Below are positions 5,987-39,340 of a stretch of DNA of 64,000 nt, one piece after another (position 1 is the first letter of the stretch; each line of letters starts with the position of its first letter). The DNA lies in the NCBI RefSeq assembly GCF_017352135.1, contig NZ_CP071454.1, forward strand, positions 806,001 through 870,000, read 5' to 3'. Origin of the DNA: Rhizobium lentis (GTDB lineage: Bacteria > Pseudomonadota > Alphaproteobacteria > Rhizobiales > Rhizobiaceae). A model generated the notes under the pieces. It was not told the origin of the DNA and made no database searches. It saw only the letters and a list, made by a program, of their open reading frames with translations. Position numbers and translations under genes: made by a program.

Positions 5987-6171
5987 GTTCTGCAAGCGAC
6001 TTGAGTGACAGAAACGTTCTTCAGATTTCAGGTGTGGCCGAAAGCGGAAGCCGCACCGTGTCGAGAGACACGCTGATAAAGCGCTAATTTGCAACTGACT
6101 TTCACGACTTTGCAGAAGTGGTGTCCTGCGACAACTACCTGCGCAGAATGCTTCGCTAAGATACTCTAGGT

Positions 6172-6206
6172 AAAAAAGCCGCCCGTAACATCCGCGTTGC
6201 GGGCGG
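6172..6206 (-). terminator. Rho-independent terminator of the thuA-like operon
   Basis: Read on the minus strand, an 11-bp stem (CCGCCCGCAAC / GTTACGGGCGG, one A-C mismatch) with a 6-base loop is followed by CTTTTTT. It sits about 70 bases after the stop of the Gfo/Idh/MocA gene at 6273. Confidence 0.85.
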
Positions 6207-6272
6207 TTCAACAGCATCGCTTGTTCCAACCCACATTTCAGTAGCCAGTGGCTTGGCGGCCAGCGAACAAAG

Positions 6273-17804: not shown

Positions 17805-17829
17805 GGAACTTTTGCCCCCGCAACACGTT
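17805..17829 (+). promoter_or_regulatory. EcfG-type promoter
   Basis: GGAAC-N16-CGTT is a full match to the alphaproteobacterial general-stress sigma consensus. It lies 111 bases upstream of the YqjD-like gene on the same strand. Confidence 0.75.
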
Positions 17830-17939
17830 GTCGGCATTGATCTGGGTCAATGCCGGGCGACATCATTCATGCAACGGACGGTGGTGACCCTGGTGCGAAA
17901 CAGGCGGGCTTGTGCGCGCCCCAGCCAATGGAGACAGCC

Positions 17940-19381: not shown

Positions 19382-19939
19382 TCAGAAAGCAAACGCCTTC
19401 GACGTCAGCGGCGCAGATGTCGCGTCGGGGCCGAAATCAGCCTCGCCCGATATTTGCAGCAGTTCTTGCAGCCGCTGGCGAGCGCGGTTGACGCGGCTCT
19501 TGATGGTGCCGACGGCGCAGCCGCAGATTTCGGCGGCTTCCTCGTAAGAAAAGCCCGAAGCGCCGACGAGGATGATCGCTTCGCGCTGGTCCGGCGGCAA
19601 CTGGTCGAGCGCCTTCTTGAAGTCCTGCAGATCGAGCGCGCCGTATTGGGAGGGATGCATCGCCATCGATTCCGTGAACAGACCGTCGCTGTCCTGCACC
19701 TCGCGGCCACTCTTGCGCATCTGGCTGTACAGCTCGTTGCGCAGGATCGTGAAGAGCCAGGCCTTCATATTGGTGCCCATCTCGAAATGATCCTGCTTGG
19801 CCCAGGCCTTCATGATGGTGTCTTGAACGAGATCATCGGCGCGGTCGTGCCGGCCTATCAGCGAAATAGCAAAGGCGCGAAGGCTAGGGAGGGCCGCCAG
19901 CAATTCCCGCTTGAAGCTGGGTTGCACTTTTTCTTCCAT
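19382..19939 (-). CDS. ecfG: general stress sigma factor EcfG
   Basis: This 185-residue group ECF15 sigma factor has a sigma region 2 (about 20-85; DDLVQDTIMKAWAKQDHFE) and region 4 (about 110-160; PPDQREAIILVGASGFSYEEAAEICGCAVGTIKSRVNRAR). It directs RNA polymerase to GGAAC-N16/17-cGTT promoters under starvation, desiccation and heat. It sits 9 bases after nepR in one operon, next to phyR. Known rhizobial names include RpoE4 and RpoE2. Confidence 0.93.
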   Translation of the reverse strand: MEEKVQPSFKRELLAALPSLRAFAISLIGRHDRADDLVQDTIMKAWAKQDHFEMGTNMKAWLFTILRNELYSQMRKSGREVQDSDGLFTESMAMHPSQYGALDLQDFKKALDQLPPDQREAIILVGASGFSYEEAAEICGCAVGTIKSRVNRARQRLQELLQISGEADFGPDATSAPLTSKAFAF

Positions 19940-19948
19940 GCGACGATC

Positions 19949-20155
19949 CTATTCGGCCATCTTGGCGGAAGCCATCATCTCGGCATGGTCGAGCTTTTCG
20001 AGAAGATCGAGAAAACGATCCGGGATCGCCTCATCCTGTGCGGCCGCATAAAGCGACCGCAATTTGACACCGATCTGATTGTTCGGGTCCAGGATATCGC
20101 TTGCCCGCAGCTCCAGCTTTCGCTGATCGGCTGCATCCTTCTTGCGTGTCGTCAT
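19949..20155 (-). CDS. nepR: anti-sigma factor NepR
   Basis: This 68-residue NepR has the conserved core IGVKLRSLYAAAQDEAIPDRFLDLLEKLD (two helices that clamp EcfG). The ATG at 20155 was chosen for a GAGAAG site and the usual NepR length of 60-70; the frame stays open to 20266 but lacks ribosome sites. NepR binds EcfG until phosphorylated PhyR takes it away. Confidence 0.9.
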   Translation of the reverse strand: MTTRKKDAADQRKLELRASDILDPNNQIGVKLRSLYAAAQDEAIPDRFLDLLEKLDHAEMMASAKMAE

Positions 20156-20304
20156 CAATTCGTCTTCTCGCCGTTTATCCGTTCCAGAGGCGTGCATGGT
20201 AATCACGAAATCAACCATCGATACTGACCGTTGCACTATCGATGTCGCTGATGTTTGCCGCGGCATGGGTCAAAATGCTACGCCCTTCCTTTGTCGGCTG
20301 GAAT

Positions 20305-20338: not shown

Positions 20339-20363
20339 GGAACTTTTTTATCAAGGCAACGTT
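20339..20363 (+). promoter_or_regulatory. EcfG-type promoter of phyR
   Basis: GGAAC-N16-CGTT is an exact consensus match ending 45 bases before the phyR start. Its -35 lies back to back with the minus-strand -35 element of nepR. Confidence 0.8.
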
Positions 20364-20408
20364 AATTGCTCATTGAACCTACGACCGGCCTGCATACGGG
20401 AGCCATTG

Positions 20409-21203
20409 ATGACACTTTCTACTCGAATTGCGCCGCACCTTCCTTATCTGCGTCGCTATTCCCGCGCCCTTACCGGCACCCAGACTTCAGGCGACGCTTA
20501 TGTCGCTGCCGTTCTCGAAGCTATTATAGCCGACCTGTCGATTTTCCCTGATACGGCAAATGACCGGGTCGCACTTTACAAACTGTTCACCCAACTGTTT
20601 GGTTCCACCGCAGTTCAGATTCCGGAGCCAACCTCGCCTTACGCATGGGAACAGCGCGCCACGCTCAACCTGTCGAAGGTTTCACCGGGCGCTCGTCAGG
20701 CCTTCCTTCTCGCTTCGGTGGAGAATTTCCGCGTTGCTGAGATCGCAGAAATTCTCGAACTCGACGAACAGGATGTCATGCACCTGCTCGACAAGGCCTC
20801 GCAGGAGATCTCCCGTCAGGTCGCAACCGACATCATGATCATCGAGGACGAACCGCTCATCGCCATGGATATAGAGCAGATGGTTGAAAGCCTCGGCCAT
20901 CGCGTCACCGGCATTGCCCGTACGCATGCTGAAGCCGTCGCGCTCTACAACAAGACAAAGCCGAGCATGGTGCTTGCCGACATCCAGCTTGCTGATGGCA
21001 GTTCCGGTATTGACGCGGTCAACGACATCCTCAAGACGTCGAGCGTGCCGGTGATCTTCATCACCGCGTTCCCGGAACGGCTTTTGACGGGCGAGCGCCC
21101 CGAACCCACTTTCCTCGTCACTAAGCCGTTCAATCCCGACATGGTCAAAGCACTGATCAGCCAAGCGCTTTTCTTCAATGAATCGACCAAGGTAGCCGCC
21201 TGA
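20409..21203 (+). CDS. phyR: anti-anti-sigma response regulator PhyR
   Basis: This 264-residue protein has an N-terminal sigma-factor-like domain (about 1-135), which mimics EcfG to bind NepR, and a C-terminal receiver (about 141-260) with the acidic pair E146/D147, phospho-acceptor D191 and a C-terminal TKPF lysine. Phosphorylation opens the protein and frees EcfG. The start at 20409 follows GGGAGCC. It is divergent from nepR-ecfG. Confidence 0.94.
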   Translation: MTLSTRIAPHLPYLRRYSRALTGTQTSGDAYVAAVLEAIIADLSIFPDTANDRVALYKLFTQLFGSTAVQIPEPTSPYAWEQRATLNLSKVSPGARQAFLLASVENFRVAEIAEILELDEQDVMHLLDKASQEISRQVATDIMIIEDEPLIAMDIEQMVESLGHRVTGIARTHAEAVALYNKTKPSMVLADIQLADGSSGIDAVNDILKTSSVPVIFITAFPERLLTGERPEPTFLVTKPFNPDMVKALISQALFFNESTKVAA

Positions 21204-21223: not shown

Positions 21224-21248
21224 GGAACCAATCGCCGAAACAGGCGTT
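21224..21248 (+). promoter_or_regulatory. EcfG-type promoter of the HWE kinase gene
   Basis: GGAAC-N16-CGTT is an exact consensus match between phyR and the kinase gene, about 130 bases before the GTG start. Confidence 0.72.
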
Positions 21249-21376
21249 CCGGTGCAACCGGGATGCCCCGAAGGCTTTAACGGTTTTTGCAGCGCTTTGT
21301 TCTAGAGTTGGCAGGCAGTTTCGGGAAGGGCGCTCCCTTCGGCGACGTTCGAGATGTCACAAGGAAAGGCGGCCGA

Positions 21377-22390
21377 GTGAATACGACTGAACCATTGTCG
21401 GGCACGCCTTTCACTTTCGAAGGCAAAGCCGCAATGATGGAGCGGGCGCTCGGCAGCGCCGGGATTTCAATCCTTTGCCAGGACGCCCGGCTTTTGATCT
21501 TCTACGCCGAAAATCTGCCGCCGCATTTCGCCGCGCTTTTTATGCCCGGCGGCAGCGATGCCGCCCTGTTCGGCGAGGTCCATGGGCAATATCTGACGGC
21601 GCTGAAACGCAAGGTGCTGGAGACCGGCATTCCCAACAATGCCGAGGTCGAGATCGATGTCGACGGCGAAATGCGAACCTATGAATTGAAAATCCAACGC
21701 ACCGGCGAACGCGGCACGCTGGGACTGCTGTCCGTCATGACGGAAGTCACCGAAACCCGGCATCGTGAAAAAGTGCTGAAATCGCTGCTGCGCGAGCTTT
21801 CGCACCGCTCGAAGAACCTCCTTGCCATCATCCAGGGCATTGCGACGCAAACGGCGCGCAATACGCTTTCTCTCGACAGCTTCCTCCTGAAGTTCCGCGG
21901 CAGGCTGCAATCGCTTTCCAATTCCCAGGACCTGGTCACGGATTCGAGCTGGCGCGGCGCCTATCTCTTTGAACTTGCGGAAAAACAGTTCGCTCCTTAC
22001 TGGCCTGAGACATCAGGCTCCATGCCAATCTACGGCATCAACGCCCATCTGACGCCGAATGCCGCCGTGCATCTCGGCCTTGCGCTGCACGAACTGATCG
22101 TCAATTCCGCCTCCTACGGCGCGATATCGGGCGGCGCCGCCTCCATCACGTTGAACTGCCGCGAGGCCGGGATCAACGACAGGAAGGCCATCGAGATCAC
22201 CTGGAACGAAGTGCTGCAGGATCAGTCTGAAGTCCATGAATTCAGCGAGAACAGCTTCGGCCGCACCGTATTGGAGCGTGTCGTGCCCTCGTCGGTCAAC
22301 GGCAAAGCGGAATTGAACCTCGTGCCCGGCCGCATCGAATATCGTCTTACCATTCCGGAAACCGAATTCGAAATCTTCAAGCGTGTGTGA
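21377..22390 (+). CDS. HWE-family sensor histidine kinase next to phyR
   Basis: This 337-residue protein has an N-terminal PAS-like sensor region (about 10-130) and an HWE kinase core: LLRELSHRSKNLLAIIQGIA phospho-acceptor box (about 163-182) and an N-box in ALHELIVNSASYG (about 266). No transmembrane helix is visible, so it is probably cytoplasmic. The GTG at 21377 follows AAGGAAAGG. Kinases in this position (PhyK-like) phosphorylate PhyR, but the histidine context is HRSKN rather than the usual HRVKN. Its EcfG-type promoter would make a feedback loop. Confidence 0.86.
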   Translation: MNTTEPLSGTPFTFEGKAAMMERALGSAGISILCQDARLLIFYAENLPPHFAALFMPGGSDAALFGEVHGQYLTALKRKVLETGIPNNAEVEIDVDGEMRTYELKIQRTGERGTLGLLSVMTEVTETRHREKVLKSLLRELSHRSKNLLAIIQGIATQTARNTLSLDSFLLKFRGRLQSLSNSQDLVTDSSWRGAYLFELAEKQFAPYWPETSGSMPIYGINAHLTPNAAVHLGLALHELIVNSASYGAISGGAASITLNCREAGINDRKAIEITWNEVLQDQSEVHEFSENSFGRTVLERVVPSSVNGKAELNLVPGRIEYRLTIPETEFEIFKRV

Positions 22391-22447: not shown

Positions 22448-22570
22448 CTTCACTCACCGGGAGGGGACCGTGAGTACGTCCGGATAGTGGGTTGGGGGCG
22501 CGCATGTTGGGTCGATGCGATCACCATCCGGATACCGCAATAACGGCGAGCGCAAACTTTGGTTCCCTTC

Positions 22571-24170: not shown

Positions 24171-25484
24171 ATGGCTGATCTCCGCAATAATTTCGTCGGC
24201 ATCAAATCCCCGAACCCGTTCTGGCTGGCATCGGCGCCGCCGACCGACAAGGCCTACAACGTCGAGCGCGCCTTCAAGGCCGGCTGGGGCGGCGTGGTCT
24301 GGAAGACGCTCGGCGAGGAAGGCCCGCCGGTTGTCAACGTCAACGGGCCGCGCTACGGCGCAATCTTTGGCGCCGACCGCCGCCTGCTCGGCCTGAACAA
24401 CATCGAGCTCATTACCGACCGCGACCTCTACACCAACCTGCGTGAAATGAAGCAGGTGAAGATGAACTGGCCGGACCGGGCGCTGATCGCCTCGATCATG
24501 GTGCCCTGTGAGGAACAGGCCTGGAAGGCAATCCTGCCTCTCGTCGAAGAGACCGGTGCCGACGGCATCGAACTCAATTTCGGCTGTCCGCACGGCATGT
24601 CGGAGCGCGGCATGGGCTCGGCCGTCGGCCAGGTGCCGGAATATATCGAGATGGTCGTGCGCTGGTGCAAGCAGTACACGCGTATGCCAGTCATCACCAA
24701 GCTGACGCCCAATATCACCGATATCCGCCGTCCTGCGCGGGCGGCCAAGGCCGGCGGCACCGATGCCGTGTCGCTGATCAACACGATCAATTCGATCGTC
24801 TCCGTAGATCTCGACAACTTCGCCCCCAACCCGACGGTCGGCGGCAAGGGCAGCCATGGCGGCTATTGCGGCCCGGCGGTCAAGCCGATCGCGCTCAACA
24901 TGGTGGCCGAGATCGCCCGTGATCCGGAAACCTACGGCCTGCCAATCTCCGGCATTGGCGGCATCACCACCTGGCGGGACGCGGCCGAATTCCTCGTTCT
25001 CGGCGCCGGCAACGTACAGGTCTGCACCGCGGCGATGACCTACGGCTTCAAGATCGTGCAGGAGATGATCACTGGCCTTTCCGACTGGATGGATGAAAAG
25101 GGCCACAAGACCCTCGACGACATTACCGGCCGCGCCGTGCCCAACGTCACCGACTGGCAGTATCTGAACCTCAACTATGTCGCCAAGGCGAAGATCGATC
25201 AGGACGCCTGCATTAAATGCGGCCGCTGCCACATCGCCTGCGAGGACACTTCGCACCAGGCGATCACCAACGTCGTCAACGGCCTGCGCCATTTCGAGGT
25301 GATCGAAGAGGAATGCGTCGGCTGCAATCTCTGTGTCAACGTCTGTCCGGTCGAGAACTGCATCACCATGGAACCGCTTGCCGCCGGCACTCTCGACAGG
25401 CGTACCGGCCGCACCGTCGATCCGAACTATGCCAACTGGACGACCCACCCGAACAACCCGATGGCGCGCCAAGCGGCGGAGTGA
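24171..25484 (+). CDS. preA: NAD-dependent dihydropyrimidine dehydrogenase subunit PreA
   Basis: This 437-residue FMN-containing TIM-barrel has the substrate-site cysteine in ELNFGCPHGMSERG (about residue 140) and a C-terminal ferredoxin module with two CxxCxxC-type 4Fe-4S motifs (about 346-356 and 380-392). With PreT it does the first step of the reductive pyrimidine pathway, whose later steps are encoded at 40294 and 42134. A strong GGGGAG ribosome site precedes it. Confidence 0.94.
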   Translation: MADLRNNFVGIKSPNPFWLASAPPTDKAYNVERAFKAGWGGVVWKTLGEEGPPVVNVNGPRYGAIFGADRRLLGLNNIELITDRDLYTNLREMKQVKMNWPDRALIASIMVPCEEQAWKAILPLVEETGADGIELNFGCPHGMSERGMGSAVGQVPEYIEMVVRWCKQYTRMPVITKLTPNITDIRRPARAAKAGGTDAVSLINTINSIVSVDLDNFAPNPTVGGKGSHGGYCGPAVKPIALNMVAEIARDPETYGLPISGIGGITTWRDAAEFLVLGAGNVQVCTAAMTYGFKIVQEMITGLSDWMDEKGHKTLDDITGRAVPNVTDWQYLNLNYVAKAKIDQDACIKCGRCHIACEDTSHQAITNVVNGLRHFEVIEEECVGCNLCVNVCPVENCITMEPLAAGTLDRRTGRTVDPNYANWTTHPNNPMARQAAE

Positions 25485-25624: not shown

Positions 25625-27613
25625 ATGCACGACCACTCAAGCAGCGAAAAATCGAAACAGATGCCTCCCAGATCGAGCCGACGCCTTCCGATCGGAGCCG
25701 AGGTTGATGCCGGCGGCGTTTCGTTCCGACTCTGGGCCCCTGCCAGAGAGCGCTGTTTCCTCGTGATCGGGGGAAATTCCGAATACGAGATGAACGCGGA
25801 AGACGACGGCTACTTCTGCCTCAATCTGCCGGGCTTGAGTGAAGGGACGCGATATCAGTTTCACTTTGGCGACACGGATGATCTCCTTGCCGATCCTGCC
25901 TCGCGTTTTCAGCCGGAGGGTCTATCGGGGCCATCAGCTGTCGTCGATCCGGCGCGGTATCAGTGGAATGATCACGATTGGCAAGGGATCCAAGCCTTCG
26001 GAGCTGTTGTCTATGAGATGCATATCGGCACCTTCACGAGGGAGGGTACCTTTGCGGCAGCCCGGGAAAAGCTGGCTAAACTGCGGGCGATTGGCATCAC
26101 CTGCCTGGAGGTAATGCCGATCAACGAGTTTGAAGGCGAGTTCGGCTGGGGTTACGACGGCACGTTGCTCTATGCTCCGACCCGGCTCTATGGACTGCCT
26201 GATGACGTGCGCGCCTTCATCGACGAAGCCCACCGGATCGGCATTGGTGTGATCCTCGACGTGGTCTACAATCACTTCGGCAAAGGCGAGCGTTTTTGCG
26301 AATTTACACCAGACTATTTCACCGAGCGTTACTCGAACGAATGGGGCAAGTCGATCAATTTCGATGGTCCGAACTGCCGTGGCGTCCGCGAATATATCGC
26401 AAAGAACGCGACCTACTGGATCGACGAATTTCATTTTGACGGATTGCGCATCGATGCAACGCAGGCCTTGTTCGACTCAAGCCGCGAACACATCGTCACG
26501 GTCATTGCCAGGGAAGCTCGCGCAGCAACGAGACAGCGTCAAATCTATCTCGTCAGCGAAAATGAGCCGCAACAAACCGACATGGCGCGACCGGCTAAGG
26601 TGGGAGGGCATGGGCTGGACGCCTTGTGGAATGAGGATTTCCACCGCTCCGCGACAGTCGCGCTGACGGGCCGCAATGAAGCCTATTATCATGATCATCG
26701 CGGTACGGCTCAGGAACTCGTTTCTGCCGCCAAATATGGCTGCCTGTTTCAGGGACAAAGATACGATTGGCAGGACAAGCCACGGGGCACTGCGGGGTTC
26801 GACCTCAAGCCGTGGAATTTTGTCCACTTTCTCCAAAATCACGATCAGATCGCCAACTCCGGCACAGGAACCAGGATCGGCCACATAACATCGCCGGCTC
26901 GCCTTCGAGCCCTGACGGCGCTCCATTTACTGGGGCCGCAGACGCCCATGCTCTTTCAGGGGCAGGAGTTTGGTTCCTCTTCCCCGTTCTATTATTTCGC
27001 AGATCACGAGGGAGAAATCGCCGACGTGGTACGGCAGGGACGGCGCAGTTTTATAAGCCAATTCCCGAACCTGAGGGATGAAGAACTGCTTAGACACATG
27101 GCGGATCCATGTGCTCGCGCGACGTTCGACAAGGTGAAGCTTGATTGGGCCGAATGGGACAGGAACGCGGGAGTCGTTCAGCTTCATCGCGACCTGCTGA
27201 ATCTGCGTCAGACAGATAAGGCCTTTTCTCGCCAGGCCTGCGCCCGTGACGGCGAAATGGACGGCAGTATCTTGTCCAGCACCGCCTTTCTCCTGCGATT
27301 CTTCGCCGAGGAACCCTCTGACGAGAGACTATTGCTGATCAACTTCGGCAACGATCTCGCGATAGACAGTCTGCCGGATCCGCTTTTTGCTCCACCAGAG
27401 GCTCACCAATGGCATCTCTCGTGGTCCAGTGAAGATGCCTCATACGGTGGTAGCGGCCGCCGCCCCTATGATTTTCAAAAGCGCTGGGTATTGAATGGGG
27501 ATATTGCCCTCGTGCTCGCCGCCGCAAAATTCCATAATAAGCAAGACGCGCCAGCAGTGCCGATGGAGAAGTGGCAAGCCGGCATTTTGCGAGCCGGAGA
27601 TCCTGACACTTAG
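25625..27613 (+). CDS. treZ: malto-oligosyltrehalose trehalohydrolase TreZ
   Basis: This 662-residue GH13 enzyme has an N-terminal CBM48-like domain (about 18-110; GVSFRLWAPARERCFLV) and a (beta/alpha)8 barrel with the GH13 regions: DVVYNHFG, the nucleophile in DGLRIDATQA, the acid in YLVSENEP and LQNHDQIANS. TreZ releases trehalose from maltooligosyl trehalose made by TreY. No treY lies in the window, so the partner must be elsewhere. The C-terminus is longer than in typical TreZ of about 580-600 residues. Its stop overlaps that of the SIR2 gene by 4 bases. Confidence 0.9.
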   Translation: MHDHSSSEKSKQMPPRSSRRLPIGAEVDAGGVSFRLWAPARERCFLVIGGNSEYEMNAEDDGYFCLNLPGLSEGTRYQFHFGDTDDLLADPASRFQPEGLSGPSAVVDPARYQWNDHDWQGIQAFGAVVYEMHIGTFTREGTFAAAREKLAKLRAIGITCLEVMPINEFEGEFGWGYDGTLLYAPTRLYGLPDDVRAFIDEAHRIGIGVILDVVYNHFGKGERFCEFTPDYFTERYSNEWGKSINFDGPNCRGVREYIAKNATYWIDEFHFDGLRIDATQALFDSSREHIVTVIAREARAATRQRQIYLVSENEPQQTDMARPAKVGGHGLDALWNEDFHRSATVALTGRNEAYYHDHRGTAQELVSAAKYGCLFQGQRYDWQDKPRGTAGFDLKPWNFVHFLQNHDQIANSGTGTRIGHITSPARLRALTALHLLGPQTPMLFQGQEFGSSSPFYYFADHEGEIADVVRQGRRSFISQFPNLRDEELLRHMADPCARATFDKVKLDWAEWDRNAGVVQLHRDLLNLRQTDKAFSRQACARDGEMDGSILSSTAFLLRFFAEEPSDERLLLINFGNDLAIDSLPDPLFAPPEAHQWHLSWSSEDASYGGSGRRPYDFQKRWVLNGDIALVLAAAKFHNKQDAPAVPMEKWQAGILRAGDPDT

Positions 27614-28446
27614 CGGCAGTCGTCCGGATTTCGTCGTTCAAGCAGACGTCCGAGGAACTGAGCGAGGGAGTGACCTGAATTCTCGCCGTCGCCGCTGAGG
27701 ACGGTGACGCCCCACCTCTTGAGGACGTGCACCTGGACTTCGCTTGGCTCGTGCATGAAGAGAAATAGCGGCGGCCGGTGTCGGTCCAGCCCTGTTCGAC
27801 GCCACGTTGACCACAGATGATGGAGCAAAAAGCGAATATTCAGATCTGACATGCTGTAGCCGATGAACAGCAATGTCGAGGCGAAGGCATCACTCCTGAA
27901 TTTGATGTCCAAGGGGGCACCAAATGACAGGCGGTCGAAGTAGTCCGACTCGGTCAGCACCAGCGTGTCAGGATCGGAGAAATCGCCGTGATATTTGACA
28001 ATCTGAGTTTTGCCGGCCGGCGCCATGGCCATGTCTTTCGCGCTCGTGATCCGGGTGAATGGCCGCCCGAATGTTTCATAGGACATCTCGAGATTTGAAT
28101 CGTAATTCGTCGTGTAGACGAGAGGAAAGTCCAGTTCCACGATCAGCCGATGCAACTCCGAGTTTTTCAGTTGCGCCGGCGAAATCTGCCACTCGCGCTT
28201 CATCCAGTCGACCAACTGAGACAATGAGCCGTGCTTCAGGCGGTAATATTCGGCGATCTCCTGGTAGGTCGTGCCGTTCGCGACGGCGAACGACGAAGGC
28301 AGGCCTAGATCCATCAACATGTGGTCAATCAGGCAGGTCCACGACGGTAAGCCGACATTCATCGATATGCCTGCGCCAACGAACAACATAGCCTGCCGGC
28401 GTTCAAGCGCGCCGGCGATCGCCACTATCTGTTCATCGTGTGCCAC
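27610..28446 (-). CDS. SIR2-like domain protein (possible NADase)
   Basis: This 278-residue protein has the SIR2_2 pattern: FVGAGIS (residues 22-28) for NAD binding, YTTNYD (111-116), KYHGD with the likely catalytic H153, and GYSMSDLNIR (196-205). No zinc-finger cysteines are present, which separates it from protein deacetylase sirtuins and groups it with the bacterial SIR2 domains found in phage-defence NADases (ThsA, DSR, SIR2-APAZ families). Here it is almost the whole protein, with no visible sensor domain. The GTG start follows AGGAGGAG. Function is inferred only. Confidence 0.82.
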   Translation of the reverse strand: MAHDEQIVAIAGALERRQAMLFVGAGISMNVGLPSWTCLIDHMLMDLGLPSSFAVANGTTYQEIAEYYRLKHGSLSQLVDWMKREWQISPAQLKNSELHRLIVELDFPLVYTTNYDSNLEMSYETFGRPFTRITSAKDMAMAPAGKTQIVKYHGDFSDPDTLVLTESDYFDRLSFGAPLDIKFRSDAFASTLLFIGYSMSDLNIRFLLHHLWSTWRRTGLDRHRPPLFLFMHEPSEVQVHVLKRWGVTVLSGDGENSGHSLAQFLGRLLERRNPDDCR

Positions 28447-28471
28447 GGCTCCTCCTGACTTCCGCAGACCA

Positions 28472-28496
28472 AACGTCGTCTAGAGGGACTTGTTTC
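28472..28496 (-). promoter_or_regulatory. possible EcfG-type promoter of the SIR2 gene
   Basis: On the minus strand GAAAC-N16-CGTT has one mismatch in the -35 and lies about 25 bases before the GTG start. The surrounding 28447-28651 has no gene. Confidence 0.4.
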
Positions 28497-28651: not shown

Positions 28652-29086
28652 CTAGGTGGCGTCGCCGATCCGTTTCGGGCCTCTTTGCGTCTCCAGCTCG
28701 TGGGCGTATGGACCCGCATGTCCACCGGTTCTCATGAAGTGTTTGTCGATCTCGGCGATGATCGCTTCAGCCTTCTCTCCGCCATTCAATCTGATCAGAG
28801 CGTCCAGTTTCGCTTCGGTGCGGTCATCGTTTTCCTTCGAAGAAGGAGATCCGATATAGAGAAAGTAGGCAAGACCCACGACCTGCCAGAGCAACTGCAA
28901 GAATTCGGACTGCCAATTTTCAAAGGTGTCTCGGCTCATCTCCATGAGGTAGGCATTGATATCAGGGGCTTGACCGTGGCTCTGTTGCTCGCCGACAAAA
29001 GCAAACCAGCCAAACAACCAATGGCCGGCGAGCGAAAATAGAAAGAAGCCGACTGTGATCCAGGCGTAGGCGTATTTCTTGAACAT
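28652..29086 (-). CDS. DUF6766-like small membrane protein
   Basis: This 144-residue protein starts MFKKYAYAWITVGFF with a transmembrane helix at about 8-28, a second hydrophobic segment at about 70-85 (LLQLLWQVVGLAYFLYIG) and a charged soluble C-terminus. The ATG at 29086 follows a near-perfect AAAGGAGG site. It is the last gene of the operon with the LLM oxidoreductase and GH13 enzyme. The family is uncharacterised; proteins of this shape occur with stress genes in soil bacteria. Confidence 0.78.
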   Translation of the reverse strand: MFKKYAYAWITVGFFLFSLAGHWLFGWFAFVGEQQSHGQAPDINAYLMEMSRDTFENWQSEFLQLLWQVVGLAYFLYIGSPSSKENDDRTEAKLDALIRLNGGEKAEAIIAEIDKHFMRTGGHAGPYAHELETQRGPKRIGDAT

Positions 29087-29135: not shown

Positions 29136-30173
29136 TCAGCTGGTTCCTGGCCTGCCCTTCAGGTTTACCCGGATCGAGGGATCGGATGCAGCAGCTGTCG
29201 CGCCGGCCCTGAAAACGGGCAGGACCTCGCGTCCGTAGACTTCGATGAATTCGCACTGATTGCGCCCGACATTATGAATGTAGATCTCTTCGAATCCCAT
29301 CGCGACGTCAGCTTCCAGCCACTCGACATGCTGTTGCGGATCAGCCGAGATGCGCACATGTTCATCCAGGTCTTCCGGCCGCACCTTCAGACACGCCTCA
29401 TCGAATTCTTCCGGCAACCGAAGCGTTTCCGAGATTGCGGCCGAAATTGCGTTGCTCCGCCACTGCTCGAAGGCGTTTGCCCTGGCGTCCTCATCGGAGC
29501 CGGCGTATGAAACATGTGTCTGCAGGTAGAGCGGCTTTTCCTCCCCGCCGCCGCGCCGGAAGGCATCGACGATTTTGCGGAGCTTGTCGGGCGGTTGATT
29601 GATGGTGATAAGCGCATCCGCCCAGCCTCCCGCCCACTCAGCCGTTTCCGGCGAAAGAGCGCCGGCAACAATGCGAGGAATTTCGTCGGGAAGAGTGTGG
29701 ATGCGGGCCTGATCGACTTTGATAGGCCCTGCCCGGCTGACAAGCTTGCCCGACCACAAGTCGCGGATGATCTCGACGGCCGCGAGTAGCCGTTCGTTTC
29801 TTTCCGACTTGGAAGGCCAGCGTTCACCGATGACGTGTTCATTCATGGCTTGCCCGCTACCGACCGCGATCCACGGCAACCGTTCCGAAAACATCTCTGC
29901 GATCGTCGCGCCAGCCTGCGCGGTAATTGCCGGGTGATAACGCCAGCCCATAGGGATGGTGATGATACCGAACGGAATAGCCCGCGTGGCTTGGAGCGCC
30001 GCTCCTAACCAGGCCCAAGCAAAGCCCGACTGCCCCTGCCGCTCGCTCCATGGCGTCAGGTGATCGGACGACATCACGGCGTCGAAACCTGCAGCCTCCG
30101 CCGCTTGCACATATCCAATGAGCTCACTTGGCGAAAATTGTTCATGGGACGCGTGATAGCCGATGAGCGTCAT
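29136..30173 (-). CDS. LLM-class flavin-dependent oxidoreductase
   Basis: This 345-residue luciferase-like monooxygenase-fold protein begins MTLIGYHASHEQFSP. It has the AVMSSDHLTPW motif (about 32-42) and ERLPWIAVGSGQAMNEH, as in F420/FMN-dependent enzymes close to the non-F420 branch found in proteobacteria. Its ATG overlaps the stop of the GH13 gene (ATGA), so translation is coupled. Substrate unknown. The pairing with a trehalose-synthase-like enzyme suggests a stress-island role and not hydrocarbon oxidation. Confidence 0.87.
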   Translation of the reverse strand: MTLIGYHASHEQFSPSELIGYVQAAEAAGFDAVMSSDHLTPWSERQGQSGFAWAWLGAALQATRAIPFGIITIPMGWRYHPAITAQAGATIAEMFSERLPWIAVGSGQAMNEHVIGERWPSKSERNERLLAAVEIIRDLWSGKLVSRAGPIKVDQARIHTLPDEIPRIVAGALSPETAEWAGGWADALITINQPPDKLRKIVDAFRRGGGEEKPLYLQTHVSYAGSDEDARANAFEQWRSNAISAAISETLRLPEEFDEACLKVRPEDLDEHVRISADPQQHVEWLEADVAMGFEEIYIHNVGRNQCEFIEVYGREVLPVFRAGATAAASDPSIRVNLKGRPGTS

Positions 30174-31813
30174 GATCCGTTACCTTCGGAAATAAACCAG
30201 TGGTAGGCATAGGGCTCGAGCTCCAGGCGCGTCTGGGTGATACCTTCGTACTCAACATCGCCGATCAGATCTCGAAACCTCCTGGGCTGCATGCCGGCAA
30301 AATTTATCTCCGTCTCGATAGGCCGGCCCGCGAGGTTATGGACGAGCAACAGAAGCGCCCCAGCGTCTTCAAAACCGTGGACCAAAACGGCCGGATCCGC
30401 GGCGCTTACCCTCACCATCCGCCCCTTTGTGAAGATCGGCTGGTTCCTGCGAAGAGAGATAAAGCGCCTGATGCCGTTCAATAGGGAATCCGGATCCTTC
30501 GATTGGTCGGCAACATTGACCCTCTTGAAGGAAAACGGGCCATCGGCGACGATCGGTTGACACAGTTTTCCGGCATTGGCACCGGAGAAGCCGGCATTCT
30601 TCTCCGCCGACCATTGCATCGGTACCCTCACCGTATTGCGTCCGGACTGGGACAGGTCCTCGCCGATGCCGATCTCATCGCCGTAGACGATAAGCGGCGG
30701 CCCGCTCAGCGAGAAGATGATGCTGAAGGCAAGTTCGATTCGTCGCTGGTCGCCGCTCAACATGGGCGCAACGCGACGGCGGATACCGCGTCCGAATGCC
30801 TGCATCTCTTCCTTCGGCGCGAAGGCGTCGAATACGTTCTTTTTCAATTCCGCGGAAACTCGAGAAAAATCGAGCTCGTCGAGGTTGCGCAGGAAATTGA
30901 CCCAGCCGCAGCCGGGCGGTGGTTCCGGGAGCAGGCTCAGTCCGTGGTTGATCGAGGACGCATCTTCCCGGGCGAACCTCGCGAAGAGATAGCAAGCGAG
31001 CATGAAGTTGAGCAGAAGCTGGAGTTGCTCCCCTTCCCCGAAAAACGCGTCGGAAGCCTCCGGTGGAAGATTGACTTCGCCGACGAGCACACCGCCCGGC
31101 CGCCTGCTTTGCAGATAGCTGCCGATCTGCCTGAGGATGCCATGCGGATCACGGGGATTGGCATGCTCGAGTCCTTTATCGGCGATGATGAGCGGAGCAG
31201 CGTCGAGCCTGAACCCGCTGACGCCGAACGCAGTCCAGTAGTCGACAATGCGCAACATCTCTTCCCGGACCTGCGGGTTAGCAGCGTTCAATTCGGGTTG
31301 AAACTCGTAGAAACTATGGAAATAAGAGGCTCGCGCCACCTGATCATAGGTCCAAAGGCTTTCCACTTCGCCCGGAAAAATCGATTTGGCTCCTGGAGCG
31401 ACAGGTGGGGGATCGGCGCTCCAGACATAGTAACCGCGGTAGCGCGTCTCGTCGTCCCGCCTGGCGGCCTGGAACCAGGGATGCTGATCGGATGTGTGAT
31501 TGACGACGAGATCGACGATTACCCGAATGCCATGCTCACCCGCGCTGTGCAGAAATGTCAGAAAGTCATCAAGCGTTCCGACCTTCGGGTTGATCGAATA
31601 AAAGTCGCTGACGTCATAACCGTTGTCACGGTCAGGGCTGCGGTAAAACGGCAGGAGCCAGATGCAGGTGATCCCCAGTTCTGAAAGGTATGGCACCTTT
31701 TCGGTCAGTCCGATGAAGTCGCCAATTCCGTGATCATTGCCATCGGCGAATTTCTCGACATCGACACTGTAGATCACTGCCTCCTCATACCAGCTGCTGC
31801 TACGGTTCGGCAC
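30170..31813 (-). CDS. GH13 alpha-amylase family protein, trehalose-synthase-like
   Basis: This 547-residue protein starts at a GTG (31813) with a GGGAGA site; an open frame continues to 32101 but lies antisense to a pseudogene and past the promoter, so it was rejected. WYEEAVIYSVDVEKFADG opens the barrel. GH13 regions are DLVVNHTSD, the nucleophile in GFRLDAAPLI, the acid in VLVGEVNLP, and a region IV of NFLRNLDEL where most relatives have the HD pair; the histidine is replaced by leucine. It resembles TreS. This substitution may change activity. Confidence 0.84.
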   Translation of the reverse strand: MPNRSSSWYEEAVIYSVDVEKFADGNDHGIGDFIGLTEKVPYLSELGITCIWLLPFYRSPDRDNGYDVSDFYSINPKVGTLDDFLTFLHSAGEHGIRVIVDLVVNHTSDQHPWFQAARRDDETRYRGYYVWSADPPPVAPGAKSIFPGEVESLWTYDQVARASYFHSFYEFQPELNAANPQVREEMLRIVDYWTAFGVSGFRLDAAPLIIADKGLEHANPRDPHGILRQIGSYLQSRRPGGVLVGEVNLPPEASDAFFGEGEQLQLLLNFMLACYLFARFAREDASSINHGLSLLPEPPPGCGWVNFLRNLDELDFSRVSAELKKNVFDAFAPKEEMQAFGRGIRRRVAPMLSGDQRRIELAFSIIFSLSGPPLIVYGDEIGIGEDLSQSGRNTVRVPMQWSAEKNAGFSGANAGKLCQPIVADGPFSFKRVNVADQSKDPDSLLNGIRRFISLRRNQPIFTKGRMVRVSAADPAVLVHGFEDAGALLLLVHNLAGRPIETEINFAGMQPRRFRDLIGDVEYEGITQTRLELEPYAYHWFISEGNGS

Positions 31814-31852
31814 CGCAATGGTCTCCCGATAATCTCTGTTGCCACACCTCCT

Positions 31853-31877
31853 AACGGTTTCGAGAGGAGGGGGTTCC
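31853..31877 (-). promoter_or_regulatory. EcfG-type promoter of the GH13-LLM-DUF6766 operon
   Basis: On the minus strand GGAAC-N16-CGTT is an exact consensus match 40 bases before the GTG start of the GH13 gene. Confidence 0.75.
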
Positions 31878-31949
31878 TCGGGTCGGCTGGTCTGCCGACG
31901 TGCGGGATGCGGAAGGAAGGATTGGCCCGGTGGAACCCGCAAGCATCCC

Positions 31950-32515
31950 CAGATCGGAATGACCAACGTCCCTTTCACCTCGATCTCACAGTATCGGGAT
32001 ATCGAAACCATCAACATGCACAGGCTCCACGTGGAGGCCGGGCTTTCACCGGAGGAATTCATCCGCGGAGCAAACGAGAACGGCCGCGACAACGCCCGCA
32101 CACCGATGCAATGGAGTGCTGCCCCCTACGGCGGTTTCTCTGCCGGCGTGCCCTGGATCGAGGTCAATCCTAATTACCCGAAGGTCAACGCCGAAGCGGC
32201 CATCAAGGACGAGAGGTCGATCTGGAACCATTATCGCAAGCTGATCGCTCTCCGGAAAACCCACCCTGTCATCGTCTATGGGGAGTACCGGTCCTGGCTC
32301 GACCAGCACCCCGATGTCTTCGTTTATACCCGCGCGCTCGACAGGAGCTGGATCATAGTGGTTGCCAACTTCACCCCTAGGAATATTGCGTTGAGTTTAC
32401 CGACGGAGCTCGCCATCATGGGAGAATGCCTTATCTGAATTATGAACCGGTGCACATGATCGGGGAAACGGTTGAGCTCAAGCCGTACGAGACGTTTGCC
32501 ATAGAGTGTAAGTGA
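31950..32515 (+). pseudogene. 3' remnant of an oligo-1,6-glucosidase/alpha-glucosidase gene
   Basis: The translation from about 31950 (IGMTNVPFTSI..YRDIETIN) through ARTPMQWSAAPYGGF matches the C-terminal third of GH13 alpha-glucosidases (after the catalytic acid). The barrel with the nucleophile and acid is missing upstream. Near 32400-32430 the frame stops early (GECLI) while the true C-terminus (MPYLNYEPVH...LKPYETFAIECK) continues in another frame to 32515, so there is also a frameshift. There is no start site; not expected to make an active enzyme. Confidence 0.85.
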
Positions 32516-32536: not shown

Positions 32537-33535
32537 CTAACCGCCGAATGACTTCCGATAGGCATGCGGACTCGTGCCCAGCCGCTTGCGGAAGTGATGC
32601 CGCATCGTCGCCAGCGTGCCGAAGCCGCTTGATATCGCGATGTCGTCGAGCGATACGGCAAGCTCTCTTTCGAGAAGGTCGCGGGCGTGGCGCAGCCGCT
32701 CCTTCAGCAGCCATTCGCCGACGCTGAGACCGGTCGTCGCTTCGAAGCGGCGCTGGAAGGTGCGCATGCTCATGCCGGCCCTCTCGGCGAGCAAGCTGAT
32801 CGGCTGCTCCTCGGCAAGGCTTTGACGCATCCATTCGATCAGCGGGCCCAGGCGAATACCTTCGCGTTCCTGCGGAACCGGCACGCTGATGAACTGCGCC
32901 TGTCCCCCTTCTCGGTGCGGCGGCACGACGAGGCGGCGGGCGACACTATTGGCGGCCTCCGAGCCGAAATCGCTGCGCACGACATGTAGGCATAGATCGA
33001 TGCCGGCAGCGCTGCCGGCCGCCGTCAGCAGGCTGCCCTCGTCGATGTAGAGAACGTCGGCATCGAGCGTGATGTCGGGATAACGTGCCGCGATCGAGGC
33101 GACATAGCGCCAATGCGTCGTCGCCCTGCGGTTGGCGAGCAGGCCGGAGCCTGCAAGGACGGCAACGCCGGAGCAGAACGACATGATGCGCGCGCCGCGC
33201 CGATGCGCCGCCCTTAACGCGGCGGCGAGCGGTTCCGGCACAGGCGCATCGATCGACCGCCAGCCGGGCACGACGATCAGTTCCGCCTCGTCGAGCACCT
33301 CCAGCCCGTTGTCGACCGCGACCGTCAATCCGCCGGCGGCGCGAAGCGGCCCCGGCTCGATGCCGCAGACCGAGAAGCGATACCAGCCCTCGCCCATCTC
33401 CGGACGCGGCAGCCCGAAGACCTCGTAGGCAATGCCGAATTCGAAGGTGCAGAGCCCGTCATAGGCAAGAACTGCGACCAGTGGTCCCTTCGTCTGCAGA
33501 GATGCGTTTGGCATGATCTTTACGCTGTCAGTCAT
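32537..33535 (-). CDS. ftrA: GlxA/FtrA-type AraC regulator with DJ-1/PfpI domain
   Basis: This roughly 332-residue regulator has an N-terminal DJ-1/PfpI-like domain (about 20-185; LVAVLAYDGLCTFEFGIAYEVFG and SFCSGVAVLAGSGLL) and two C-terminal AraC helix-turn-helix motifs (about 230-325; SMRTFQRRFEATTG and SSGFGTLATMRHHFRKRLG). It is divergent from a rhodanese gene, the usual pairing for FtrA, so the symbol follows that context. The ATG at 33535 replaces a TTG three codons earlier. The effector is unknown. Confidence 0.86.
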   Translation of the reverse strand: MTDSVKIMPNASLQTKGPLVAVLAYDGLCTFEFGIAYEVFGLPRPEMGEGWYRFSVCGIEPGPLRAAGGLTVAVDNGLEVLDEAELIVVPGWRSIDAPVPEPLAAALRAAHRRGARIMSFCSGVAVLAGSGLLANRRATTHWRYVASIAARYPDITLDADVLYIDEGSLLTAAGSAAGIDLCLHVVRSDFGSEAANSVARRLVVPPHREGGQAQFISVPVPQEREGIRLGPLIEWMRQSLAEEQPISLLAERAGMSMRTFQRRFEATTGLSVGEWLLKERLRHARDLLERELAVSLDDIAISSGFGTLATMRHHFRKRLGTSPHAYRKSFGG

Positions 33536-33604
33536 GATGGCCAATTTCGCAAATCTCTAACATCGGCGATACCAGGCGGCAATCCAACACGATAGGAAAG
33601 ACCG

Positions 33605-36230: not shown

Positions 36231-36767
36231 ATGTCACTTCGCAGCGTGCTCCGCGCACAAACAGCAGATTGCCACGCCGAAGTCGATAAGCTCTTCGGCA
36301 CTTTCGACCTCTCCAGCAACGTGCAGTACAGGACATTCCTGCGCGCGCATGCCCGGGTCGTACCGGCGGCGGAAAATGCACTCGACGAGGCCGGGGTCGT
36401 TCGGCTGCTGCCCGACTGGCCGGAACGAAGGCGAGCGCAGCTGCTGCTTGCCGATATCGGCGAACTCGGCGACCGTTTGCCCGAGCGCCTTCCGGCGCCG
36501 GCATTGCATGATGAAGCGGCGCTCTGGGGTGCCCTCTACGTCCTCGAAGGCTCGAAACTCGGCGGCGCCGTGCTCGCGAGATCCGTACCCGATCCCCTGC
36601 CCAGCCGCTATCTCACGCCACGAGGTCCAAAGGGTGCCATCAGGATCTTCATGGATCGTCTCGAGGCAATCGGGGCCGACGATCCCTTCGCCGCCGTTTC
36701 CTCGGCGCGCACGCTCTTCGATCTTTTCCTCAAAGCCGGGCAGCTCGAACTGGAAGCCGTCCCATGA
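36231..36767 (+). CDS. bphO: biliverdin-producing haem oxygenase
   Basis: This 178-residue haem-oxygenase-fold protein has the proximal histidine in LRAQTADCHAEVDKLFG (about residue 16) and the helix motif ALYVLEGSKLGGAVLAR. It opens haem to biliverdin, CO and iron. It ends 4 bases inside the start of the bacteriophytochrome gene, so its product makes the chromophore for that kinase. The ATG at 36231 has a weak ribosome site; an upstream frame to 36132 is less like the family. Confidence 0.88.
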   Translation: MSLRSVLRAQTADCHAEVDKLFGTFDLSSNVQYRTFLRAHARVVPAAENALDEAGVVRLLPDWPERRRAQLLLADIGELGDRLPERLPAPALHDEAALWGALYVLEGSKLGGAVLARSVPDPLPSRYLTPRGPKGAIRIFMDRLEAIGADDPFAAVSSARTLFDLFLKAGQLELEAVP

Positions 36768-39340
36768 GCGGCACACCCGAACCCGTCGATCTCACCAACT
36801 GCGACCGTGAGCCGATCCACCAGCTCGGCGCCATCCAACCCTTTGGCTTCCTGCTGACGATATCGCTCGACTGGATGGTCACGCGGGCCTCCGCCAATCT
36901 TGCGGAGTTTATAGGCGTGTCCCAGGCCGATGCGCTCGGCCGTCCGATTTCCTCGCTGATCACGCCGGAGGCGCTGCACACGATCCGCAACAAGCTGACC
37001 ACGCTGCGCGGTCCCGATGTCGTCGAGCGCATTTTCGACATTGCCCTGCTGCCCGATCAGTCGCGTTTCGACCTTGCCGTTCACGTCAACGAAAATCAGG
37101 TCATCCTCGAAGGCGAACGCTGCCAGCAAGAAAAGCGCAACGCTCCGTCGCTTTCCATGCGCAGCATGATGTCCCGCCTCGACCAGACGGAAACGCTGGA
37201 GGCTTTTTTCCGCGAGGGCGCGAGGCAGGCACGCGCGCTCACCGGCTTCGACCGGGTGATGGTCTATCGTTTCGATGAAGGGGGTTCCGGCGAGGTCGTG
37301 GCGGAGGCCGCCCGCAGCGGCATCGGCTCGTTCCTCGGGCTGCACTATCCGGCCTCCGACATTCCAATTCAGGCGCGCGCGCTTTATCTGCGCAACCTAT
37401 TCCGCATCATCGCCGATATCGAGGCGGTGCCTGTGCCGGTTCTCCCGCAGCTCGACGAACAGGGCCAGCCGCTCGATCTCTCCATGTCGGTGCTGCGTTC
37501 GGTCTCGCCGATCCATATCGAATATCTGAAAAACATGGGCGTCGGCGCGTCGCTTTCCATATCGATCGTCGTGGACGGCAAGCTCTGGGGCCTGTTTGCC
37601 TGCCATCATTACGGCCCGCGCCTGCCATCGGCGCAAAGCCGCTCGACTGCCGAACTCTTCGGCCAGATGTTCGCGTCGCGTCTTGAAAGCCGTGAACGGC
37701 GGCTGGCGCTCGACTACGAGACCAAGGCGCGTCGCATCGCCGATCGTCTTCTCACCTCCGTCGCCGATAATGCCAGCCTGCTCGACGATCCGGCCTGGTT
37801 GATCGAGGCGCTCGCCGACGCCATTCCTGCCGACGGCATCGGCGTCTGGATCAATGGGCGCCTCGCGCTTGCAGGCATCGGGCCGGATGAGCGAGGCTTT
37901 TCCGCTCTCATCCGCCATCTCAACCGCAACGCCGGCGGGCGCATCTATGCCGTCGACAGGCTTGGCGAAACCTATCCGGATCTTGAAATCGACGATGTGG
38001 TGGCAGGCATGCTTGCCATCCCGATCTCGCGTTCGCCGCGCGATTACGTCGTGCTTTTCCGTCAGGAACTGGTGCGCACCGTCCGCTGGGGCGGCGATCC
38101 GCACAAGCCGTTGGAATATGGCCCCAACGGCCCGCGGCTGACGCCGCGCAAGAGCTTCGAAGCCTGGTCGGAACTGGTGCGCGGCCGCTCGCTGCCCTTT
38201 ACGGAAGCCGAGCGCCGGGTCGCCGAAACGATCCGCCTCACGCTGATCGAAGTGGTGCTGCGCCTGACCGACGAGGCCAGCATGGCGCGCCAGATGGCGA
38301 ACGAGCGGCAGGAACTGCTGATCGCCGAACTCAACCACCGCGTCCGCAACATATTGAGCCTCATTACCGGAATCATCCGGCAGTCGCAGACGACGTCGGT
38401 CGGCCTCGGTGACTATGTCCGTCAACTCGAGGGCCGCATTCAGTCGCTCTCCCGTGCCCATGACCAGATCACCAGGGATCACTGGGCGCCCGCTTCGCTG
38501 CGGCAATTGTTATCGGCCGAAACCGCGGCCTATCTTGGAAAAAACGCGCAACGCTTCCGGATGAGGGGCGAAGACGTGCTGCTGGAGCCGCAGGCCTTTT
38601 CCACCGCCGCCCTGGTTTTCCATGAGCTGATGACCAACAGCGCCAAATACGGCAGCCTCTCCATCGCCGGCAGCGGCACGATCGAACTCAGCTGGGAGCG
38701 CGACAATGAAGGCAATCTGCGCATCGATTGGCGCGAAAAGGACGGCCCGCCCGTCATCGAGCCGAACCGCCACGGGTTCGGTTCGACGATCATCCGGCGC
38801 TCCATTCCCTACGACCTCGGCGGCAAGGCCGAAGTCCGCTACATCAAGGAGGGGCTGGAGGCGGATTTCCTGATTCCGGCTCGCTACGTGAACGCCGTCG
38901 ACCCCAGCCTGTTGCAGAACGCGACGACTGCCGGCGTTGCGCCAAGCAAAACCGCGCCCGCCGATGATCAGGAGCCGCTATCAGGTCTGAAGATCCTGCT
39001 GGTGGAAAACAACCTGATCATCGCCATGGATGGAGAGGACATCCTGCGCCGCCTGGGTGCCGACGTGAGCACGGCGCCGAGCGTCGCCGAGGCGATGGAG
39101 ATCCTCGCCGGCCAGTCCTTCGATTTCGCGCTTCTCGATGTCAATTTGGGAGACGAGACGAGTTTCGGGATTGCCGACCGATTGGCAGCCGCAGGCGTTC
39201 CCTTCGTGTTTGCCACGGGTTACGGCGAAGGGATCGCCCAGGCGAATAGCCACTCGGGCGCACCCGTCTTGCAGAAACCCTATACGACCGAAGGCATAAC
39301 CGATCTCCTCGCCCGGGTGGAGCTTCCCAAGAGGAAATAA
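36764..39340 (+). CDS. bphP: bacteriophytochrome sensor kinase with HWE core and fused receiver
   Basis: This 858-residue protein is laid out PAS (about 15-115; bilin-binding C13 in LTNCDREPIH), GAF (about 140-310; HYPASDIP), PHY (about 320-500), HWE kinase (about 520-710; LLIAELNHRVRNILSLI with N-box in FHELMTNSAKYG) and a C-terminal receiver (about 740-855; phospho-acceptor in FALLDVNLG). It senses red and far-red light through biliverdin. The receiver on the same chain may take the phosphate from the HWE core. It overlaps bphO by 4 bases. Confidence 0.93.
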   Translation: MSGTPEPVDLTNCDREPIHQLGAIQPFGFLLTISLDWMVTRASANLAEFIGVSQADALGRPISSLITPEALHTIRNKLTTLRGPDVVERIFDIALLPDQSRFDLAVHVNENQVILEGERCQQEKRNAPSLSMRSMMSRLDQTETLEAFFREGARQARALTGFDRVMVYRFDEGGSGEVVAEAARSGIGSFLGLHYPASDIPIQARALYLRNLFRIIADIEAVPVPVLPQLDEQGQPLDLSMSVLRSVSPIHIEYLKNMGVGASLSISIVVDGKLWGLFACHHYGPRLPSAQSRSTAELFGQMFASRLESRERRLALDYETKARRIADRLLTSVADNASLLDDPAWLIEALADAIPADGIGVWINGRLALAGIGPDERGFSALIRHLNRNAGGRIYAVDRLGETYPDLEIDDVVAGMLAIPISRSPRDYVVLFRQELVRTVRWGGDPHKPLEYGPNGPRLTPRKSFEAWSELVRGRSLPFTEAERRVAETIRLTLIEVVLRLTDEASMARQMANERQELLIAELNHRVRNILSLITGIIRQSQTTSVGLGDYVRQLEGRIQSLSRAHDQITRDHWAPASLRQLLSAETAAYLGKNAQRFRMRGEDVLLEPQAFSTAALVFHELMTNSAKYGSLSIAGSGTIELSWERDNEGNLRIDWREKDGPPVIEPNRHGFGSTIIRRSIPYDLGGKAEVRYIKEGLEADFLIPARYVNAVDPSLLQNATTAGVAPSKTAPADDQEPLSGLKILLVENNLIIAMDGEDILRRLGADVSTAPSVAEAMEILAGQSFDFALLDVNLGDETSFGIADRLAAAGVPFVFATGYGEGIAQANSHSGAPVLQKPYTTEGITDLLARVELPKRK

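Follow-up and report, generated by a model that had tools for sequence, protein, structure and literature searches.

An orphan SIR2 gene in Rhizobium lentis

The stretch analysed here, referred to as the window, comprises 64,000 nucleotides of the 4.5-Mb Rhizobium lentis contig NZ_CP071454.1 (positions 806,001 to 870,000). It contains a gene for a small SIR2-like protein, which a first-pass annotation, made from the letters alone, had proposed to be either a stress-controlled enzyme hydrolysing nicotinamide adenine dinucleotide (an NADase) or a defence gene. The gene and its upstream elements, in window coordinates, are the following:

27610..28446, minus strand: SIR2_2 protein of 278 residues, candidate orphan KomC-type NADase; H153 aligns with H146 of KomC
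28450..28456, minus strand: Shine-Dalgarno-like AGGAGGA ahead of the SIR2 GTG start codon
28472..28497, minus strand: EcfG-like promoter GGAAAC-N16-CGTT, a variant box that is the same in the related loci L002 and L117

The gene itself was confirmed; of the range given for it previously (27610..28496) the end did not stand, the open reading frame (ORF) stopping at 28446 and position 28496 already including the promoter. The only domain recognized by Pfam is SIR2_2 (E 8e-26), and the NAD-site motifs GAGIS, TTNYD, KYHGD and GYSMSDLNIR are all in place. The two cysteines of the protein, C38 and C277, are both solitary and form no CxxC pair, so that the earlier description of a complete NAD site with neither zinc cysteines nor a sensor domain proved accurate. 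No Pfam profile of classical sirtuins matched the protein, nor does it possess zinc-binding cysteines, and no additional domain of the ThsA kind follows the SIR2_2 domain in the Pfam search. The nearest relatives are from Rhizobium, and ratios of nonsynonymous to synonymous substitution (dN/dS) of 0.064–0.194 in nine pairwise comparisons indicate purifying selection.

Relationship to KomC and absence of a KomB partner

Searches against the PDB returned KomC (8zsf) as the best match (E 8e-73, residues 16–267 aligned), followed by 9v0g (E 4e-35), ThsA and DSR2. A profile built from 28 orphans, i.e. SIR2 relatives encoded without KomB, again placed KomC on top (E 9e-105), with ThsA and DSR2 behind. 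PADLOC matched the protein to ThsA, PDC-S25, LmuA and Dsr types, while the single NCBIfam match, to Dsr2, fell far under its cut-off. Residues N114, D116, H153, G154, D155, D201 and R205 and the GAG/S28 loop are at least 95% conserved among 43 orphans and at least 90% among 10 KomB-paired proteins; the protein can thus be described as a KomC-type SIR2 with intact catalytic residues. This kinship goes beyond the first-pass annotation. The orphans also have near-invariant residues of their own beside the active-site motifs (M29, S35, P108, N118 and M199).

In the Kongming system, as described in the available text of two reports (PMC12948488, PMC12774641), KomB binds deoxyinosine triphosphate (dITP), whereupon KomC depletes NAD+. 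We looked for KomB/HAM1-like genes at the SIR2 loci. None was present at the 79 loci with at least 45% identity, the group to which the window belongs (these include duplicates and fragments such as L071 and L074, and at L003 and L012 the flank is shorter than 1 kb on one side). At 37–45% identity, 9 of 11 loci carried one, the two exceptions being a copy with internal stops (L109) and a degraded Sinorhizobium meliloti pSymB copy (L111). Below 37% only L110 did (1/11), and therefore the pairing with KomB holds as a rule only within the KomC-like range. The remaining component of Kongming, the KomA deaminase, was not found among the scanned neighbours in the window, a genome-wide KomA search not having been made.

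The R. lentis genome possesses one HAM1 gene, located 1.4 Mb from the SIR2 gene, and no second one. Its product is RdgB-like, matching ordinary RdgB with E ~1e-28 and KomB with E 1e-7. The supply of KomB from elsewhere in the host was accordingly rejected. Across 50 carrier genomes (50 of 80 related loci covered), a single HAM1 gene was found in 48, two in one and none in one. All 14 control genomes also contain a HAM1 gene, and because HAM1 is kept almost everywhere its presence says little.

In a tree of 51 proteins, eight of them KomB-paired, a single branch splits the 43 orphans from the paired proteins (support 96/91). The same holds for 53 proteins including 10 paired ones (support 96/90), KomB pairing changing once on that tree; L098 and L110 are present only in the larger tree, L110 as a very long branch, and L109, L111 and L141 are outside both. 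Within the orphans the tree largely follows bacterial family. Since the trees are unrooted and some branches are long, it is by inference that KomB was lost by the orphans.

Several individual loci illustrate both arrangements. SIR2 and a HAM1-like gene overlap on the two Pantoea plasmids examined (L094, L095), and the HAM1-like product matches KomB of 8zsg with E 1.5e-65; the overlapping KomB-KomC genes (5423–6774) are followed by a YebG gene, and no KomA is among the annotated neighbours. Pantoea accounts for 95 of the 314 plasmid records matching the SIR2 query. Bradyrhizobium archetypum, the carrier with two HAM1 genes, carries both an orphan (L030) and, apart from it, a KomB-SIR2 pair (L141, 2809–4127), whose SIR2 alignment is split into two pieces that lie in different frames; L141 is a biased case because it was found via its HAM1 gene. 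Some S. meliloti strains carry a degraded or two-piece pSymB copy of the orphan (L111 as well as H27–H30 and H34).

An EcfG-type promoter precedes many orphan SIR2 genes

An EcfG-like promoter upstream of the SIR2 gene had been noted before. The site exists, with GAAAC at 28492–28496 and CGTT at 28472–28475, although it departs by one mismatch from GGAAC-N16/17-CGTT and means little on its own; it is the relatives that lend it weight. According to the available portions of the respective studies, the σEcfG promoter is GGAAC-N16-CGTT in R. etli (PMC3892343) and GGAAC-N17-20-GTT in Sphingomonas melonis (PMC6599016), and in the latter the regulon table lists malto-oligosyltrehalose trehalohydrolase and Ku. 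Neither main text contains the word SIR2.

Upstream regions of 70 orphan loci were compared (72 regions less the duplicate places L092 and L096; L097 is within the 70). The rule set beforehand, which allowed no more than one mismatch to GGAAC-N16/17-CGTT in the 120 bp preceding the gene, was satisfied at 40 of them, against a mean of 1.83 and a maximum of 5 in 200 shuffles. The form GGAAC-N16/17-NNTT was present at 45 of the 70 loci (200 shuffles: mean 0.86, largest 4) and, after dereplication at 85%, at 21 of 33. Before other genes of the same loci it was much rarer, 23/132 for genes next door and 81/902 for those further off, and in a background of 413 host genes it preceded four. As for spacing, 16 nucleotides separate the two elements at 41 of the 70 loci and 17 at 14, while each other spacing from 8 to 27 was seen 0–10 times. 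Alignment of 19 sites showed a nearly random spacer, whereas the third base of the −10 element, which had not been selected for, is G or A in 19/19. The motif is spread over seven named families and was found upstream of komB at none of 10 KomB-paired loci.

An EcfG-type promoter thus recurs across the SIR2 family, at most of the loci compared, with the window copy one mismatch removed from it, and the comparison of relatives makes the putative link between SIR2 and stress much stronger than the single site in the window could.

The general stress response locus of the host

A core general stress response locus is encoded in the window itself, 5–8 kb from the SIR2 gene, which is a further point beyond the first-pass annotation:

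19382..19939, minus strand: EcfG-type sigma factor, central to the general stress response
19949..20266, minus strand: NepR anti-sigma factor
20373..21203, plus strand: PhyR anti-anti-sigma response regulator, with an exact EcfG motif at 20339–20363
21287..22390, plus strand: HWE histidine kinase, with an exact EcfG motif at 21224–21248

EcfG, NepR and PhyR are thus all present in the host. Two more exact EcfG motifs were observed, one at 17805–17829 ahead of a DUF883-like gene at 17850 and the other at 22542–22566 on the minus strand, to which no gene could be assigned. Some 14 kb away from this locus, a phytochrome-HWE hybrid kinase is encoded (36764–39340) that may feed PhyR.

An NAD salvage gene adjoins some orphans

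At four loci (L042, L048, L060 and L062) the next gene after SIR2 on the same strand falls into one cluster and encodes nicotinate phosphoribosyltransferase (NAPRTase), identified by NCBIfam in three cases and, at the same place in the fourth, by PF04095. In three loci it overlaps the SIR2 stop by 4 bases, and in the fourth it begins 22 bases on, when the first in-frame start is used. The adjoining gene was the sole NAPRTase found in each of the four genomes, while in three related SIR2 carriers no NAPRTase was found in the genome. Among 150 genomes of the bacterial family of these loci strong NAPRTase matches (E <1e-20) occurred in three and matches of any kind in 16. The coupling of the two genes suggests that NAD+ is indeed cleaved by the SIR2 protein with release of nicotinamide, and that recovery of the cell is provided for.

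Genomic neighbourhood

The SIR2 gene is part of an accessory island between preA and ftrA, and the earlier description of a stand-alone SIR2 gene in a stress/trehalose block is borne out by its neighbours:

24171..25484, plus strand: PreA, at the left border of the island
25625..27613, plus strand: TreZ, malto-oligosyltrehalose trehalohydrolase, convergent to SIR2, with GGAAC-N16-AGTT upstream
28652..29086, minus strand: DUF6766 protein, upstream neighbour of SIR2
29136..30173, minus strand: LLM-class oxidoreductase of the TIGR03885 family
30170..32101, minus strand: TreS-like GH13 enzyme (TIGR02456, 524 bits, not reaching the cut-off of 678)
32537..33544, minus strand: FtrA regulator, at the right border of the island

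All five island genes (TreZ, SIR2, DUF6766, LLM and TreS-like) are present in G034 and L002. Genome G009 represents an empty site: TreZ and DUF6766 are there, but their aligned parts lie 84 bp apart, compared with 1,053 bp, including SIR2, in the window. Only fragments of the LLM gene and of part of the TreS-like gene are left in this genome (L119, 4837–5397), with TreZ and DUF6766 kept. G019 has the LLM and TreS-like genes, with TreZ, SIR2 and DUF6766 not at the site. None of the five genes was found at the site in G023 and G012, the latter having an 80% identical SIR2 elsewhere. In our own scans of these loci, ORFs were called by a crude procedure based on length and GC content at third codon positions rather than by a trained gene finder.

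The first-pass annotation had suggested a search of other genomes for co-occurrence of SIR2, DUF6766 and LLM genes. DUF6766 is within four genes of SIR2 at four loci (the window, L002, L024 and L031) and the LLM gene is near SIR2 at three (the window, L002 and L117), while SIR2 is missing here from G019, which has the LLM gene, and from G009, which has DUF6766. A conserved system of the three genes was rejected, their company being too local; the recurring unit is SIR2 with its promoter, in changing company. A fixed stress-gene neighbourhood was likewise rejected, as no stress family dominates among the adjacent proteins assigned by Pfam. Stress genes do adjoin SIR2 in single cases, namely CsbD/BON/DUF2934 in S. 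meliloti, LigD/DinB in R. etli, where the orphan is on a plasmid beside ligD, and Mn-catalase in Mesorhizobium.

Distribution

Orphans were found only in Alphaproteobacteria. Searches across the class recovered 2 carriers among 385 genomes, R. lentis itself and one KomB-paired, and across the phylum 12 among 398, six of them orphans including that of R. lentis. No SIR2 relative was confirmed in viral contigs, which were scanned with short peptide patterns of one query, and among 50,697 phage records six gave weak matches of ~30% identity or less. A phage-borne gene was rejected on these grounds.

Possible function and alternative explanations

We propose that the protein is a KomC-type SIR2 NAD+ glycohydrolase which lost its dITP-sensing partner KomB and came under the alphaproteobacterial general stress response, an explanation that seems to us about as probable as all the others together. 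Kinship with KomC, the promoter, the gene coupling and selection can be read from the sequences themselves. Enzyme activity, induction and benefit to the cell are deduced from them, as follows. Stress would act through PhyR to free σEcfG from NepR, and the freed sigma factor would direct synthesis of SIR2, the control of which would be mainly transcriptional. SIR2 would then cleave NAD+ to nicotinamide and ADP-ribose, and the lower NAD+ level may bring about a reversible metabolic slowdown (dormancy, less reactive oxygen, stalled infection), until salvage replenishes NAD+ on recovery. Both halves of the original proposal, stress-controlled NADase and defence gene, receive some support, the former from the promoter and the latter from KomC as the closest characterized relative.

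A number of observations weigh against this proposal. The site in the window, with its GGAAAC rather than GGAAC box, is weak evidence by itself, 8 of 413 host genes matching the preset rule equally well. GGAAC-N16/17-NNTT is a rule loosened after inspection of the sites, the preset one giving the lower count reported above, and even so it is absent from 25 of the 70 loci, which are moreover not independent (about 10 are closely alike Mesorhizobium loci). Among later-found orphans (L099–L103) two have the motif and three do not, and it is absent at two Methylobacteriaceae and two Roseomonadaceae loci. L003–L005 show no good promoter match. Stress control is less sure in the Rhizobium branch to which the window belongs, since L002 and L117 share the GGAAAC box of the window in the same position and that of L004 and L005 has drifted further. 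The commonest family among 124 adjacent proteins is the generic short-chain dehydrogenase (6/124). NAPRTase adjoins only four orphans; it is missing within 1.5 kb of SIR2 in G990, a further carrier of the same family, and the window host keeps its NAPRTase elsewhere. Finally, of 60 genomes in the genus only five, R. lentis among them, contain SIR2 at 60% identity or more, a patchy pattern such as defence genes often show.

A purely defensive role of SIR2 is quite possible. Should the protein be foremost a phage-defence effector, the stress response would only raise its standing level and a phage cue would trigger lethal NAD+ depletion. The nearest characterized relatives, KomC and then ThsA and DSR2, are indeed antiphage NADases, and the patchy distribution would suit such a role, as would the mobility of the gene, which occupies a chromosomal island in the window, lies on a plasmid next to ligD in R. 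etli and is missing from the empty site in G009. On the other hand, the examined flanks hold no KomB-like partner and no fixed neighbour, annotated neighbours are metabolic and stress genes, viral contigs and phage records provided no confirmed or close relative, and the orphan tree is largely grouped by bacterial family. We regard the explanation as unlikely on balance, if still a serious competitor. It is improbable that a nucleotide sensor is still needed, with housekeeping RdgB replacing KomB and stress-formed dITP, inosine triphosphate (ITP) or xanthosine triphosphate (XTP) switching SIR2 on. KomB is a relative of HAM1/RdgB, a HAM1-family gene is present in 49 of 50 carrier genomes, and similarity to KomC spans nearly the whole length, beyond the catalytic motifs; yet HAM1 is near-universal in any case, host RdgB is far closer to ordinary RdgB than to KomB, and the orphans have near-invariant residues of their own beside the active-site motifs.

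The SIR2 fold also includes deacylases, and NAD+ might be used for protein deacylation, ADP-ribosylation or signal making rather than bulk hydrolysis. Strong purifying selection accords with this, and coupling to salvage would fit any reaction that frees nicotinamide from NAD+. The match to SIR2_2 alone in Pfam, with no classical sirtuin profile, the missing zinc cysteines and the naming of the nearest solved relative as an NADase argue the other way, and we regard such use as doubtful. Least probable is chance placement of an ordinary accessory gene behind a meaningless motif. The site in the window is no better than those of eight host genes and the neighbourhood is variable, but the motif recurs in 45 of 70 relatives, at one spacing and in seven named families, and dN/dS is 0.06–0.19.

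Returning to the stress-controlled, KomB-free NADase, a broader generalization can be offered somewhat more tentatively: the general stress response may have acquired an NAD+-burning arm, a KomC immune effector freed from its infection sensor, placed under σEcfG and, in certain lineages, linked by translational coupling to NAD salvage; what had been a suicide weapon would thereby have become a reversible metabolic brake for stress and perhaps infection. If true, this would allow a change of regulator in an antiviral effector to be traced, with the stress sigma factor of the cell itself taking over from a ligand-sensing partner, and would connect the general stress response of rhizobia and other Alphaproteobacteria with the level of NAD+. 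We found no such link in print, and no paper combining SIR2, the general stress response and EcfG, in a search that left the subscription literature mostly uncovered and is no proof of novelty.

Comparison with known systems

The closest counterpart is KomC of the Kongming system (KomABC), likewise a single-domain SIR2 protein of nearly equal length with identical catalytic residues. In contrast to Kongming, no KomB gene adjoins the SIR2 gene of the window, the host has no second HAM1 gene, and the orphans combine a stress promoter with near-invariant residues of their own round the active-site motifs. PDB 9v0g and related entries, which also contain a xanthosine/inosine triphosphate pyrophosphatase chain, represent another HAM1-SIR2 pair of known structure, which seems to be distantly related to KomB-KomC. 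Their SIR2 chain aligns over residues 19–265 of the window protein, to which it is more distant than KomC, and was likewise solved with a HAM1-type protein. ThsA of Thoeris, DSR1/DSR2 and LmuA share the SIR2-type domain but are longer (profiles or chains of ~430 to 1275 residues, one ThsA profile of 242 excepted), whereas the window protein stops after the SIR2 part. NatT of Pseudomonas aeruginosa, in the available text describing it (PMC11535050), is an NAD/NADP-depleting toxin, and NAD depletion is linked there to persister formation; the likeness noted here is one of described function, and NatT, unlike the orphan SIR2, belongs to a toxin-antitoxin pair. As for its control, the orphan motif agrees with the EcfG motifs of the R. 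etli and S. melonis regulons as given in the accessible parts of those studies.

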